Below are positions 2,884-31,598 of a stretch of 64,000 nucleotides of DNA, piece after piece. Source of the DNA: Halohasta litorea (lineage in GTDB: Archaea; Halobacteriota; Halobacteria; Halobacteriales; Haloferacaceae); NCBI RefSeq assembly GCF_024494645.1, contig NZ_JANHDJ010000008.1, positions 1-64,000 of the forward strand, written 5' to 3'. The notes under the pieces are model-generated. The model had not been told where the DNA came from, ran no database searches, and worked only from the letters and a program-made list of their open reading frames with translations. The translations under genes were made by a program, and so were the position numbers. Numbering within the stretch: the first letter of the stretch is position 1; every line of letters starts with the position of its first letter.

Positions 2884-4179
2884 ATGACCGACGACTCGCC
2901 CGGAACGTGGGGGTCTGATTCTGGCCGAGACACTGGCGAGTTGTTTGCTGCCGATGATTCGAACCGATTGATTAAAAATCTCGAACTGCTCGAAGTGGGC
3001 GCGGTCCCCGAAGGCGACCGGATCGTCGGCCGCGACAACGAGATCGAGTCGCTCGTCTCAAATCTCAAGCCGATTGTCCGTGGCGATCCACCGACGCCCG
3101 TGTTGATCTCCGGCAAAACCGGCACCGGGAAATCACTGGTCGCCCGGCATGTCGCCCAGACGGCGACGAGCGTGGCCGAACGCGAGGATCTCCGGGTGGC
3201 CGATATCTACGTCGACTGTTCGCAACACTCGACAGAGACGCGGGCTGTGTGCGCGACTGCCCGCGAGATCAACAAAGCAGCAGGCTCGCCGAAAGATATC
3301 CCACTGACGGGGCTGGGGGCCTCGCAGTACTATACGATCATCTGGGAGCTCCTGGAGGACTTCGATGCCGCTGTGGTTATCCTCGATGAGATCGATCGGA
3401 TTCAACCCGACAGCGACGGCAACCGGGACAATATCCTCATGCAACTCTCCCGAGCCCGCGAAGCCCAGAAAACCGACACCAACATCGGCATCATCGCCAT
3501 TTCGAACAAACTCGATTACCCAGACAAAATGAACCAGCGCGTCCGATCGTCGTTCGGGGACGCCGAGTTGCTGTTCCCACCGTATGATGCCAATCAACTC
3601 CGAGAGATTATGCACGCCCGTGAGGATGCGTTCTACGACGGCGCACTCGAAGGCAGCGTGATTCCGAAGGCGGCGGCGCTGGCGGCCCGTGAACACGGTG
3701 ATGCCCGGAAAGCGATTCGGATTCTCAAAAATGCAGGCGTCATCGCCGAGGAAAAACAGGACAGCAAGGTTCGGGAAGCTCACCTGAATGAAGCCAAACG
3801 GCGGGCCGAAGCCGACCGCGTGGCCGAACACGTCGCCACCCAGACGCCCCACGCCCGGCATATCCTCCTCGCGTTGGCGTTGCTCACCAAGACCGCCGAC
3901 CCAGACGACGGCGAGGATGGCTACCGAACGACACACGTTTACGACGCCTACTGTACGGTCTGCGAGGAAGAGGGCACAGAGGAACTCAAAATCGATCGTG
4001 TGCGGCAGCTCCTGGACGAACAGGCGTTCCTGGATATCATCGAGAGTCGACGGACCGGCGGCGGCCACCAGCAAGGGACGTTTACGGCGTGGCGGTTGCT
4101 CAAAGATCCCGACGTTGTGGTGAAAGGCGTCGGTCACGACCCTGAATTGGTCTCGCCGAAAATCGGCGCAGACGACTGA
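2884..4179 (+). CDS. orc1: Orc1/Cdc6 replication initiator (origin 1)
   Basis: A 431-aa AAA+ initiator that binds origin repeats and helps load MCM. It has an acidic N-terminal tail, Walker A GKTGTGKS (residues 77-84), Walker B VVILDEID (about 165-171), a sensor region (IGIIAISNKLDYPDKM), the AREHGDARKAIRIL sensor-2 stretch, and a C-terminal winged helix ending with a GG-rich wing (RRTGGGHQQG). Length is normal for haloarchaeal Orc1. Repeats sit both upstream (2504-2849) and just past its stop (4191-4211), so it most likely recognises them. The ATG at 2884 follows the last repeat by 34 bases. Confidence 0.97.
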   Translation: MTDDSPGTWGSDSGRDTGELFAADDSNRLIKNLELLEVGAVPEGDRIVGRDNEIESLVSNLKPIVRGDPPTPVLISGKTGTGKSLVARHVAQTATSVAEREDLRVADIYVDCSQHSTETRAVCATAREINKAAGSPKDIPLTGLGASQYYTIIWELLEDFDAAVVILDEIDRIQPDSDGNRDNILMQLSRAREAQKTDTNIGIIAISNKLDYPDKMNQRVRSSFGDAELLFPPYDANQLREIMHAREDAFYDGALEGSVIPKAAALAAREHGDARKAIRILKNAGVIAEEKQDSKVREAHLNEAKRRAEADRVAEHVATQTPHARHILLALALLTKTADPDDGEDGYRTTHVYDAYCTVCEEEGTEELKIDRVRQLLDEQAFLDIIESRRTGGGHQQGTFTAWRLLKDPDVVVKGVGHDPELVSPKIGADD

Positions 4180-4190
4180 AAACAGCATAT

Positions 4191-4211
4191 TCTCACTTTG
4201 AATGAGGGGGG
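4191..4211 (+). repeat. origin 1 repeat downstream of orc1
   Basis: A single further copy of the repeat (TCTCACTTTGAATGAGGGGG) twelve bases after the orc1 stop codon, same orientation as the upstream array. It shows that orc1 is bracketed by its own repeats. Confidence 0.8.
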
Positions 4212-5263: not shown

Positions 5264-5472
5264 GCAACTGATTCATTTTAACCTATCATGTGTTCGTGGT
5301 GAAAGTAATTCCACAGCCGGTCGACCACTTCACTAGGCTGTTACAGTAGCGAAAGATTTCATATATCAATATGCACTTTACTATCTCTAACCAAAACCAC
5401 TCAAACGCCGAATTCTCATAGTAGAGAGGCTCTATTTCTATCCTAATTTCCTCAGTATTGGATTTTAAGCCA

Positions 5473-5526
5473 CTGTACATTAGTCCAGTAGTGTACAGTA
5501 GTTTTACTAGGGTCGCCGCTGTACGT
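5473..5526. promoter_or_regulatory. CTGTAC half-sites upstream of the integrase
   Basis: CTGTAC at 5473-5478 and its complement GTACAG at 5493-5498 form an inverted pair, and a further CTGTAC occurs at about 5519. They lie just before the integrase ATG (5539) and resemble an operator for autoregulation. Inference from symmetry only. Confidence 0.35.
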
Positions 5527-5538
5527 GAAGCAAGAAAG

Positions 5539-6669
5539 ATGGACACCACTCAGACAGAGGCTACTCCGGGGGTTCAGACGCTCGAAGCGGCCATCCAGGA
5601 CTTCCTGGAGTCGGGCTCGAAGTCGGGCAACTACAAATCGAACTTAGCGTACGTACTGAGCGGCTTCCGTGAGCAGGTCGCTCCAGGAGCCACGACGCTG
5701 GCCGACGTCGACAAAGAGGTGATGGCCGAGTACGCCACCTACCTGCGGCGGCGCGTTGATGCACACCAAACCCCTGGTGTCGAAGGTGGGATCGCCGCCT
5801 CGACGGCGTGGGCCTACTACGATAACGTCTCTGCGTTCTTTGATTACTGCCTCAAGTGGGACAAGATCGACGAGAACCCGGCCCAAAAGCAGGTCGCCAA
5901 AGACGAGCTCCCCGAACGACCGTCGACGGTGAGTGGGTCTCAGCAGTTCTGGTCGACCAACGAACGCCGACAGCTCCTGGATCACGTCGACCGGCGAGCC
6001 TCAACGGCGATCGACGACCGCGGCACCGAGGCCGTCGTCGAACTCCGAGACAAAGCACTCGCCTACGTGCTCGCGTTTACCGGCGTGCGTGGTGGCGAGA
6101 TCCTGAAAGACTCACGGGACGATCGGCGTGTCGGGCTTCGGTGGGCCGACGTGGACATTGAAGACAACCAGATTACGATCCTCGGCAAGAACCAGCAGCG
6201 CGAGCCCGCCCAACTGCCGGGCCAAACTCACCACCCACTCAAACAACTCCGACGGGTGGTCGAGCCAGCCAGCGAGGAGTGGCCCGTCTTCGTCTCGCTG
6301 CACGCACCCTCGATGTACTCTGTTCTACCTGATGGCTTCGAGCGGCCAGACGACGACGAGCGGAGCCTGATTGACCACTGTCGGGCCCTTGAGGTTGTGC
6401 CACCAGCACTGTCTACAAACGGAGCTCGGTCAGTTCTCAAGCGACTGTGCCGGGATGGCGAGATCGAAGTTGAGGGCGACAAAGAGTTTCTCACGTTGCA
6501 CGGCGCACGGCGTGGGGTTGGTGAGAAACTGTATCGCGAGCGTGGGGCCGCCGCGGCCCAACGGACGCTCCGGCACGCCGATCCGAAGACGACCTCGGAG
6601 ATGTACTCCCACATCGAGACGAGCGAGAACGCCGAAAACGTGACCGAAGTATTCGGCGACGAACGATGA
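5539..6669 (+). CDS. tyrosine recombinase / phage-type integrase
   Basis: A 376-aa integrase. The start is placed at ATG 5539 (MDTTQTEATPGVQTLEAA) because the upstream in-frame extension to 5458 runs through the candidate operator. It has an N-terminal SAM-like core-binding domain (residues about 15-115) and a catalytic domain with TGVRGGEIL (first Arg), LHGARRGVGEKLY (HxxR) and LRHADPKTTSEMYSHIE (His and the nucleophilic Tyr). All catalytic elements are present, so it is probably active. Its C-terminal tail AENVTEVFG recurs in diverged form at 6930-6960, fused to another gene start. No tRNA attachment site is visible next to it. Confidence 0.93.
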   Translation: MDTTQTEATPGVQTLEAAIQDFLESGSKSGNYKSNLAYVLSGFREQVAPGATTLADVDKEVMAEYATYLRRRVDAHQTPGVEGGIAASTAWAYYDNVSAFFDYCLKWDKIDENPAQKQVAKDELPERPSTVSGSQQFWSTNERRQLLDHVDRRASTAIDDRGTEAVVELRDKALAYVLAFTGVRGGEILKDSRDDRRVGLRWADVDIEDNQITILGKNQQREPAQLPGQTHHPLKQLRRVVEPASEEWPVFVSLHAPSMYSVLPDGFERPDDDERSLIDHCRALEVVPPALSTNGARSVLKRLCRDGEIEVEGDKEFLTLHGARRGVGEKLYRERGAAAAQRTLRHADPKTTSEMYSHIETSENAENVTEVFGDER

Positions 6670-6782: not shown

Positions 6783-6971
6783 GTGAAATTATTTCGTAGG
6801 AACGCTCTCCAAATAGGAGGGTCTCTTGGAATCGCTTCATTATCAGGGTGTAGTGCTACAATTTTACGGCCAAGACTGACTGTTGAACTGCTAGATTATG
6901 ATGACGAACCGTATACAGTCGATCTCCAAAACGCTGAGAACGTGACTGAGGTATTCGGGAATGGGCGGTAG
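6783..6971 (+). pseudogene. chimera: lipoprotein signal fused to an integrase tail
   Basis: A GTG start at 6783 gives a 62-residue reading. Residues 1-24 are a Tat lipoprotein signal (LFRRNALQIGGSLGIASLSGC, with Cys at the lipobox). Residues 25-50 look like the start of a haloarchaeal lipoprotein (LTVELLDYDDEPYTVDLQ). The last 12 residues are the integrase tail (NAENVTEVFGNGR against NAENVTEVFGDER in the gene just upstream). The DNA of the two tails differs mostly at third codon positions, so the second tail comes from a diverged integrase, not a recent local copy. I read it as a recombination scar rather than a working gene. Confidence 0.6.
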
Positions 6972-7031
6972 ACACAATTCAAGCTCGTGCAGTCTGTTAT
7001 TGTTTTCTGCTACTGAAAATTGTTACAGAAT

Positions 7032-7262
7032 CCTGTAATATATATCTGTAACTTATATCTGTCCCAATTGTCTGTAATTTTAATCTGTAATAGCTATCTG
7101 TAACCGAGTTCTTTAATCGAGGTTGCTGTCGGATCGCAGAAACCCAATCGAAAGACAGCACCGATTACAGATAGCCATTACAGCTAACTGAAACAGATAA
7201 GCGGTACAGATTTCTGTTACAGTATTCAAGTACATATGTCTGACACAGATTTATGGTACAGA
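7032..7262. repeat. inverted array of 13-bp-period iterons upstream of parA
   Basis: Plus-strand units of TCTGTAA begin at 7032 (CCTGTAA), 7045, 7058 (TCTGTCC), 7071, 7084, 7097 and 7110 (TCTTTAA): seven units exactly 13 bases apart. After a 48-base spacer the complement TTACAGA repeats at 7165, 7178, 7191, 7204 and 7217, skips 7230 and resumes at 7243 and 7256, again at exact 13-base steps. The array ends 18 bases before the parA ATG. The arrangement suggests a partition centromere (parS-like), an autoregulatory operator, or replication iterons. Confidence 0.85.
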
Positions 7263-7280
7263 AGGGTGAATGTCGTATAT

Positions 7281-8276
7281 ATGATTACGGCTGTAGTCTA
7301 CTCAGAATCCGGTGGGACATACAAGACGACAATGACAGCCAATGTCGCAGTGGCACTGGAGCGAATGGAGCTGAATACTCTCGTGCTGGATCTAGATCCG
7401 CAGGAGGGAAATCTGACCAGCCTCTTTGATGCTGGTGAACACCGAAGCGATCCAGATGCAGACAATCTCGTCAAACACATCCTGGATATGCCGGACGGGG
7501 AGTTCCACGATCTCATCGAAACCACCGAGGAAGGCGTCGACATAATCCCGAGCCACGACATGCTGGGTGACTTTACGTCGAACCTAGAACAGAAGATCTC
7601 TTACGAAACGGGCATGAAAAACATGAGCCGAGAGGAGTATCCACGGTTCGAACTCCTCCATGAGTTGCTCTGGAAAAAGCAGGAACTGCACAAGGAATAC
7701 GATGCCATCCTTATTGATCCAAACGCACGTGCGGAAGACCTGCTTTACAATGCTATTTTCGCACTGCGAACGCTCGTCGCACCCGTCAAGCCAGCTGGCA
7801 AGGGGAACCTGAGCCTCGAAGGGCTCGAGGAACTCGTCGGAAACATGGAAAACCAACTCGATATTGAAATTGGGCTCTCCTGTGTGGTCCCATCGGGGGT
7901 TGGGCAAACAAATGCCCACCAACAGTACCAACAACAGTTCGAGAACACAGAAGAATTTGCAACACCAGTCTCTATTGGGAACCGAGAAAGCCTCATGGAC
8001 GCGATGTGGGAGGCCAGAGGCTCAGCATTCAAGGTAGTTGAAGAGCGTTGGAAGACCTTCGAGAAAGACGGCCAGATGGTGAGTGAGCCGGGTCAACGAC
8101 GGGTACGTGATAGAGAGGTCGAAACGCTACGGAGACTGTATGAACTAGCGTGGTTCATTGCGACGACTACGTTCGATGCTGATATCGACCCTGTTTTGGA
8201 ACTCGATATCCAGGGTCATACGAATAGAACAATCGATCTGAAAGAAGACGACAAAACGGAGGCAACAACAGCATGA
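7281..8276 (+). CDS. parA: ParA/Soj-type partition ATPase
   Basis: A 331-aa ParA-family ATPase for replicon segregation. ATG 7281 (MITAVVYSESGGTYKTT) is preferred over ATG 7236 because the 13-bp iterons run to 7262 and the protein begins directly with the first strand of the fold. The P-loop is GGTYKTT, but the position of the ParA signature lysine (K in KGGxxKT) is Ser. The following motif LVLDLDPQEGNLT is typical, as is DAILIDPNARAEDLLYNAI. The next gene overlaps by 4 bases (ATGA), forming a parA-parB-like operon behind the iterons. Confidence 0.88.
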   Translation: MITAVVYSESGGTYKTTMTANVAVALERMELNTLVLDLDPQEGNLTSLFDAGEHRSDPDADNLVKHILDMPDGEFHDLIETTEEGVDIIPSHDMLGDFTSNLEQKISYETGMKNMSREEYPRFELLHELLWKKQELHKEYDAILIDPNARAEDLLYNAIFALRTLVAPVKPAGKGNLSLEGLEELVGNMENQLDIEIGLSCVVPSGVGQTNAHQQYQQQFENTEEFATPVSIGNRESLMDAMWEARGSAFKVVEERWKTFEKDGQMVSEPGQRRVRDREVETLRRLYELAWFIATTTFDADIDPVLELDIQGHTNRTIDLKEDDKTEATTA

Positions 8277-8773
8277 GCAATTTCAAATCTGGTTCTGGAA
8301 ATCTCGATTTCGGCGGTAGTGACGAGGACGATGGGGAACCTGAACCCGAACCCACAGAGAAGACTACCCAAACAGATACTGAGAGCAACGAAGGAGACGA
8401 ATCAACAGCAACCGAACAACCCGGGGAAGACTCACGAAATAAAACCTCACCAGGTACAGACAGCACGACTAGCTCACAAAAAGAGAACAGAGAGTCCACA
8501 GAGGAGTCGACACCAGCCACCACCGCCAGAGAGCAGTATCCGTACTTCATTCGACGGAGTAACGTTGGTGATGAGCGTGATACCCGACTTGAGATCCATG
8601 TCCGGGACAGGGTAGCAGATCAAGAAGCCGCATTTCGAAACGAACTTGCAGAACAACTCAATGCGAACGAGGTCTCGAAAACAGATGCTCGCGAGTTTGC
8701 CCTTCTCGCGGCGTTTCAGCATCCAGAGCGTGTTGCTGAACTGATGGCAGAAGAGGGATTCGGCACCCTCTGA
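8273..8773 (+). CDS. ParB-like partner protein of plasmid partition operon
   Basis: A 166-aa protein translationally coupled to parA by an ATGA overlap. The N-terminal half (residues 1-90) is a disordered acidic Ser/Thr/Glu-rich linker. The C-terminal half (EQYPYFIRRSNVGDERD to the end) is folded and helical, with a likely DNA-binding or dimerisation core (LEIHVRDRV, KTDAREFALLAAFQHPERV). Position and size suggest the centromere-binding adaptor. No canonical ParB nuclease or HTH motif is seen, so this is inferred from context. Confidence 0.7.
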   Translation: MSNFKSGSGNLDFGGSDEDDGEPEPEPTEKTTQTDTESNEGDESTATEQPGEDSRNKTSPGTDSTTSSQKENRESTEESTPATTAREQYPYFIRRSNVGDERDTRLEIHVRDRVADQEAAFRNELAEQLNANEVSKTDAREFALLAAFQHPERVAELMAEEGFGTL

Positions 8774-31382: not shown

Positions 31383-31598
31383 ACCCCACCTCGTTGCCTC
31401 TGTAAAACACTCACTGAATTTTACGAGTCGGTGTGAACGGGCGAGAGAACAGTTGAATAGCTCTTCTTTGGGCGGTGGCGTGAGTTCTAGACCCTCCGTT
31501 GCCGCTGTAACGTGTCTCGATAGTCTACTCACCCACCCCACGTTGCCGCTGTAACGTGTCTCGATAGTCTACTCACCCACCCCACGTTGCCGCTGTAA
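31383..31598 (-). repeat. origin 2 repeats, left arm, with 44-bp tandem duplication
   Basis: Copies of CACCCCACGTTGCCGCTGTA occur at 31383 (diverged), 31491 (ACCCTCCG variant), 31534 and 31578. The last three sit in a tandem repeat with a period of exactly 44 bases (CGTTGCC at 31497, 31541, 31585), evidently a duplication of a whole repeat-plus-spacer unit. These copies read on the minus strand. Confidence 0.88.

Follow-up and report, generated by a model that had tools for sequence, protein, structure and literature searches.

A tiled array of 13-bp palindromes upstream of parA as a candidate centromere and operator of a haloarchaeal partition operon

We found that a plasmid-sorting parA/parB pair in a haloarchaeal genome is preceded by an array of a 13-bp palindromic unit (ATCTGTNACAGAT), which is tiled head to tail in 18 degenerate copies that form two blocks, with an exact 13-base spacing within each block. 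The array in front of parA is real and far above chance, and it very probably serves a haloarchaeal ParA/ParB partition operon both as its centromere (parS) and as an operator for autoregulation. The window (the whole stretch of 64,000 nucleotides that was analysed) is part of a 103,842-base contig, one of the 34 contigs of the genome, and its genes include orc1/cdc6 (2884-4179), an integrase gene (5458-6669), parA (7281-8276) and a small gene overlapping parA (8273-8773).

The array in the window

The distal block (6992-7121) consists of ten units, which start at 6992, 7005, 7018, 7031, 7044, 7057, 7070, 7083, 7096 and 7109 and were located with a matrix trained without the window and with a de novo fit to the window alone. 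The proximal block (7160-7263) consists of eight units, which start at 7160, 7173, 7186, 7199, 7212, 7225, 7238 and 7251. Between the blocks lies a 38-bp spacer (7122-7159), which shifts the register by one base and the length of which is not conserved among relatives; no strand is assigned to the blocks or to the spacer. In the distal block, the left half TCTGT is better kept from 7031 onward (the unit at 7109 being marginal), and in the proximal block the right half ACAGA is better kept, with half-site polarities of +4.0 bits (left) and -5.0 bits (right), respectively.

The earlier note had described seven TCTGTAA units facing seven TTACAGA units, with exact 13-bp steps in both arms, 48 bp between the arms, and the last units 18 bp from the parA start (ATG 7281), and these three distances were all confirmed. 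The letters fit less closely. The left arm does have seven positions (7032-7116), but TCTGTAA stands at only four of them, the other units reading CCTGTAA, TCTGTCC and TCTTTAA; there is a TTACAGA-type arm at 7165-7262, but it has eight positions and TTACAGA at only one of them. In addition, three further units upstream (6992-7030) had been missed, and within these a TTACAGA in the "wrong" orientation is found at 7023. Since the unit itself is a 13-bp palindrome, each arm shows the half that is better kept in its palindromes, and the term "inverted array" says only which half is better kept.

Autocorrelation of the window gave peaks at 13, 26, 39 and 52. The array reached 0.508 in the lag-13 statistic, whereas the 64-kb window as a whole gave 0.265 ± 0.023 and none of 1000 dinucleotide shuffles exceeded 0.324. 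A 13-column matrix was trained on close relatives with the window excluded and no symmetry imposed, and it came out two-fold symmetric (A-TCTGT-N-ACAGA-T). After symmetrisation, this relatives-only matrix gave the array region a total of 134.2, compared to at most 11.1 in 1000 dinucleotide shuffles, and the de novo fit to the window only returned the identical 18 units with the consensus aTCTGTtACAGAt. By pattern search, the array pattern occurs in the window's own genome only at this par locus, and in Halobacterium salinarum pNRC200 likewise only at the par locus. In the array region, bacterial sigma-70 promoters and terminators were no more frequent than by chance, and there was no Rfam match to a structured RNA.

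Two other repeats were seen in the window. The integrase 3′-end contains a 29-bp stretch (6628-6656) that recurs (86%) at 6930-6958, where a short ORF (6783-6971) ends, and the integrase and the short ORF thus both end with NAENVTEVFG plus three residues; the repeat is probably what remains of a second integrase end, or else a scar left by recombination. At 31497-31598 there is a perfect 44-bp tandem repeat in 2.3 copies with a GCCGCTGTAACG motif.

The 13-bp period and the unit sequence among related par loci

We fetched 15 parA loci from plasmid records and 49 from species genomes, and the periods common to their upstream regions were 13, 26, 39 and 52. In a profile search, a ParA matching the family profile was found in 247 of 391 genomes of the class; besides the loci from this search, 60 further loci, many of them remote, were added. 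In the resulting non-redundant set of 115 haloarchaeal loci, periods of 7 to 24 bp were compared, and the period of 13, which the earlier note had proposed to look for upstream of related parA genes, was the best one at all 115 (70/70 close and 45/45 remote loci). Among the controls, 13 was the best period in 3.3% of 2224 stretches from the same loci and in 4.8% of the upstream regions of 378 other ORFs, and 107 of the 115 loci lay above the 99th percentile of the controls. Chance or low-complexity periodicity was ruled out by the shuffles together with these 2224 and 378 regions. The weak loci include the chromosomal relatives L112, L115 and L117, which have little or no array upstream of parA; L115 and L134 have a strong 13-bp periodicity downstream instead. 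In a later set of 20 more loci, 13 was the best period in all except L189. As a negative control, the parA locus of phage PhiCh1 showed no 13-bp period; its ParA carries the normal KGG box and is paired with another small protein. Among the relatives, the period persists even at loci with a remote ParA and with units of quite another sequence.

In the close ParA clade, all members examined have an array upstream of parA, with 7 to 29 units, the largest extending over more than 400 bp. Both halves are well kept in 273 of 846 units and one half in 462, and since most units are degenerate, the affinity of the site may be low. Of 50 proximal blocks among the relatives, 32 are dominated by the right half, while distal blocks are mixed (18 left, 25 right); the gaps between blocks range from 1 to 237 bp, and several relatives have a single uninterrupted array. 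The main array of L026 is displaced to about -870 to -630 relative to parA, and L041, L042 and L134 have arrays downstream of parB. Overall, extra or displaced 13-bp arrays, either 3′ of parB or several hundred bases 5′ of parA, were seen in these four loci and in L031.

Two observations concern the records themselves. One contig filed as a Candidatus Nealsonbacteria MAG (L020, PUMP01000053.1) carries a haloarchaeal parAB with its array and a 90% identical ParA, probably as a result of binning contamination. On NZ_CP122313.1 (L056/L059) and on contig C2 of genome G367, two near-identical parA copies lie at distant positions of one contig, and these are either duplicated par loci or assembly repeats.

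Fits to single loci gave differing, mostly palindromic units, e.g., CAGTnTnACTG, TTAGTTACTAA, TCTTAGATA and GTTAGTCTAAC. Units were compared with the ParB partners at 105 loci with a readable partner, with the promoter excluded. The similarity between units was about 0.36 at a ParB C-domain identity below 50% and about 0.82 above 50% (Spearman 0.69, which was reached in 0 of 500 permutations). Thus, unit sequence tracks the C-terminal domain of ParB, a relation to which shared ancestry contributes as a confounder. One genome (G016) has five par systems, all with period 13 and with different units, the window's own genome has a second par locus with a different unit (contig C31), and the same unit type is found with the same ParB type in different genera. 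Different units within one cell and the same pairing of unit and ParB type across genera argue against shared descent alone.

ParA, its small partner and the parA promoter

The parA gene (7281-8276, + strand) encodes a ParA-family P-loop ATPase of 331 aa, with Pfam matches to AAA_31 (4e-17) and CbiA (4.5e-13) that are both above the gathering score; relatives align and are annotated from the methionine at ATG 7281. The protein is short and has no N-terminal HTH domain, with Walker A from residue 9, which is a type Ib trait. Its Walker A reads ESGGTYKTT, in which the signature lysine of the deviant Walker A box (KGGxxK[S/T]) is absent and replaced by serine. Among the 174 family ParAs that could be read at this position, 119 have Ser and 55 have Ala, and the family box is E-[S/A]-G-G-x-x-K-[T/S], in which the Ser/Ala almost always follows a Glu. 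Of 135 aligned ParAs, 134 have K174 (Thr in PhiCh1 ParA), and on this alignment it may substitute for the lost signature lysine. Because the signature lysine is absent, we liken the system to type I in its working and do not count it as a canonical member.

The parB candidate (8273-8773, + strand, 166 aa) overlaps the parA stop by 4 bp, and the two genes overlap or abut in nearly all loci. This conserved overlapping downstream gene, both protein ends of which are conserved, encodes a candidate centromere-binding protein with an N-terminal FKSGSGNLDF motif, an acidic disordered linker and a helical C-terminal domain (about residues 105-160). Among 148 ParB candidates, the K-x-G-x-G..F N-terminus is common, the acidic linker varies in length, and P90, R95, R102, R111, K136, D138, R140, E141 and G162 are shared within the C-terminal domain; the selection filter, which 148 of 155 passed, demanded K-x-G, so the conservation of those two positions is partly circular. 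Relatives are annotated as acyl-CoA dehydrogenase (in many public plasmid records, L001-L012) or as hypothetical proteins; the ParB candidate is a small acidic protein that has no acyl-CoA dehydrogenase domain.

In the AlphaFold model of ParB, the N-terminal two-thirds are disordered and the C-domain that follows is confidently modelled as helical, with residues 105-110 extended and helices at 112-129, 136-149 and 151-160; in the model of the C-domain alone, a helix runs through 105-110. The segment R105-L-E-I-H-V-R111 followed by two helices, the second of which opens with K-T-D, recalls a ribbon-helix-helix in these models, and we treat this as a resemblance only. The ParB C-domain matched no known DNA-binding fold: ParB fell into no Pfam family, two Foldseek searches gave nothing significant, and profile searches gave no significant match to any PDB chain, SegB included, with no SegB chain among the profile matches up to E = 10. 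An hhalign comparison with haloarchaeal RHH_1 proteins scored only marginally above shuffles. Faint Foldseek matches to the histone fold (E 5 to 10) were treated as noise.

A parA core promoter, GTCTGACACAGATTTATG, was predicted by consensus at 7238-7255 (+ strand), with a BRE region and a TATA-like TTTATG (7250-7255). The centre of the predicted BRE/TATA is about 28 bp before the parA ATG, as for a leaderless transcript. TTTAT is present at -45 to -20 in 53 of the 70 close relatives, with the consensus TGTCTGACACAGATTTATG, and over the 115 loci no other position of TTTA is nearly as common as a start 30-32 bp ahead of the ATG; the TCTGAC..TTTAT part is also present in the sister clade despite its different units. 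The last two units of the proximal block lie on GTCTGACACAGA-TTTATG. The centromere-like array upstream of parA overlaps its promoter, as in type Ib systems, with the promoter assigned by consensus. Since these units cover the predicted BRE/TATA and the TTTA is at the position of a leaderless promoter, their occupation should repress parAB.

Function of the array and comparison with known systems

The earlier note had offered an archaeal partition centromere or operator as one reading of the array and had named the 8273-8773 product as the protein to test for binding. This reading is supported, with that product as the likely binder, and the 13-bp period that it led one to expect is present at the related parA loci. 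A cis-acting repeat array near the par genes is itself a trait of type I partition, and we consider a type Ib-like system in which ParB would bind the array the most likely one. We propose that a dimer of the small ParB would read each 13-bp palindrome through its C-terminal domain. Since 13 bp correspond to about 1.24 turns, neighbouring units are rotated by about 86 degrees and four units make about five turns; dimers on adjacent units could then stack into a continuous helical nucleoprotein complex, so that the spiralling multimer that had been suggested is plausible. The acidic disordered linkers would extend the conserved N-terminal K-x-G-x-G..F tails, which would contact nucleoid-bound ParA-ATP and trigger its release, leading to the separation of plasmid copies. 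The tiled tails would present many ParA contacts, like the contiguous repeats in pSM19035, and occupation of the last two units would shut off the leaderless parAB transcript by covering its BRE/TATA.

The array might instead serve as an operator only, bound by ParB or another repressor, with the true centromere elsewhere. The proximal block does lie over the predicted parA BRE/TATA in most relatives; however, as many as 29 units over more than 400 bp go far beyond the needs of repression, and no second array of the kind was found in the genome by pattern search. The arrays or 13-bp periodicity downstream of parA/parB in L041, L042, L115 and L134 and the main array of L026 about 650-870 bp upstream also speak against it; the arrays far upstream (L026) or downstream of parB (L041, L042 and L134) indicate that the array is more than an operator. 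We regard the operator-only reading as quite unlikely.

The earlier note had also suggested that the units are the origin iterons of a small replicon, at which a replication initiator would then bind. Tandem direct repeats look like bacterial plasmid iterons, and orc1 is less than 5 kb away. However, CTCACTTTGAACGAG-type ORB-like repeats surround the orc1 promoter (2227-2843), about 4 kb off, and the 13-bp array goes with parA/parB in diverse surroundings, usually without an adjoining orc1. Seven such CTCACTTTGA[AC][CT]GAG repeats, unrelated in sequence to the 13-bp array, were seen, six upstream of orc1 (2227-2843) and one after its end (4192-4206), and they are likely to mark a replication origin. 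Since origin-type repeats stand by orc1, the array need not be origin iterons, and this function is very improbable. The third reading, a designed inverted array with TCTGTAA and TTACAGA arms that loop together, agrees with the window, where left halves are better kept in the distal block and right halves in the proximal one, but not with the relatives, in which polarity is mixed, the spacing between blocks varies freely and several arrays are unbroken; such a design has hardly any probability left.

Alongside the partition centromere and operator, we considered a broader idea, a separate haloarchaeal ParA machine that takes its lysine from elsewhere (ParA K174, or a ParB tail lysine in trans), couples ATP turnover to gating by ParB and keeps only the register in evolution. 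This combination is unlikely as a whole. If it were true, the lysine would in the boldest form come in trans from the K-x-G-x-G..F tail, ATP turnover would be gated by ParB fixed in a 13-bp register on the DNA, and evolution would keep the register alone and not the base sequence.

The nature of chromosome and plasmid centromeres was listed as an open question in a 2016 review of archaeal genome segregation (PMC5120986), and in the literature searched, with subscription papers outside it, we found no description of a haloarchaeal plasmid centromere. The array offers a concrete candidate centromere for par loci in most of the haloarchaeal genomes searched (247/391), including the model organism H. 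salinarum (pNRC200, array at about 184361-184693), in which VNG_RS11340 is the ParB homologue. It also provides a search rule for further centromeres, namely a 13-bp register upstream of an E[S/A]GG ParA, makes available a natural series of ParB/site specificity changes, allows prediction of which plasmids have a common par specificity, and brings to light a ParA subfamily without the signature lysine.

Among the closest known systems is SegAB of the Sulfolobales, which pairs an archaeal ParA-family ATPase with a small DNA-binding protein, the gene of which follows and overlaps that of the ATPase (PMC12284271, PMC9178275). In both systems, sites lie ahead of the ATPase gene, and the site is a 13-bp palindrome with a 6-1-6 build, TCTAGA-S-TCTAGA for SegB (PMC12284271) and ATCTGTNACAGAT here. 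However, SegB sites occur one at a time at scattered positions on the chromosome, whereas the haloarchaeal units are tiled head to tail, and the haloarchaeal ParB has no sequence match to SegB. Type Ib systems with a ribbon-helix-helix ParB (pSM19035 delta/omega, PMC9499535; TP228 ParF/ParG, PMC9178275) share the small ParA without an N-terminal HTH, the small ParB with an acting N-terminal tail, and contiguous short repeats over the parA promoter. In pSM19035, at least four contiguous repeats are needed for ParA activation (PMC9499535), but these are 7-bp non-palindromic heptads in contrast to the 13-bp palindromes here; the haloarchaeal ParA also differs in having no signature lysine, and its ParB is RHH-like by resemblance only. 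The AspA-ParB-ParA cassette of Sulfolobus pNOB8 (PMC5120986) is another archaeal plasmid partition system with a palindromic site upstream, but it has three proteins and a single 23-bp palindrome from which AspA spreads, compared to two proteins and an array in the haloarchaea. McdA of carboxysome positioning (beta type 1), with the box SGGQGKT, is also a ParA-family ATPase without the signature lysine (PMC8262871, PMC9178275). It positions an organelle, works without a centromere, and has a partner, McdB, with no relationship to ParB. It provides a precedent that a ParA-family ATPase can work without the signature lysine.
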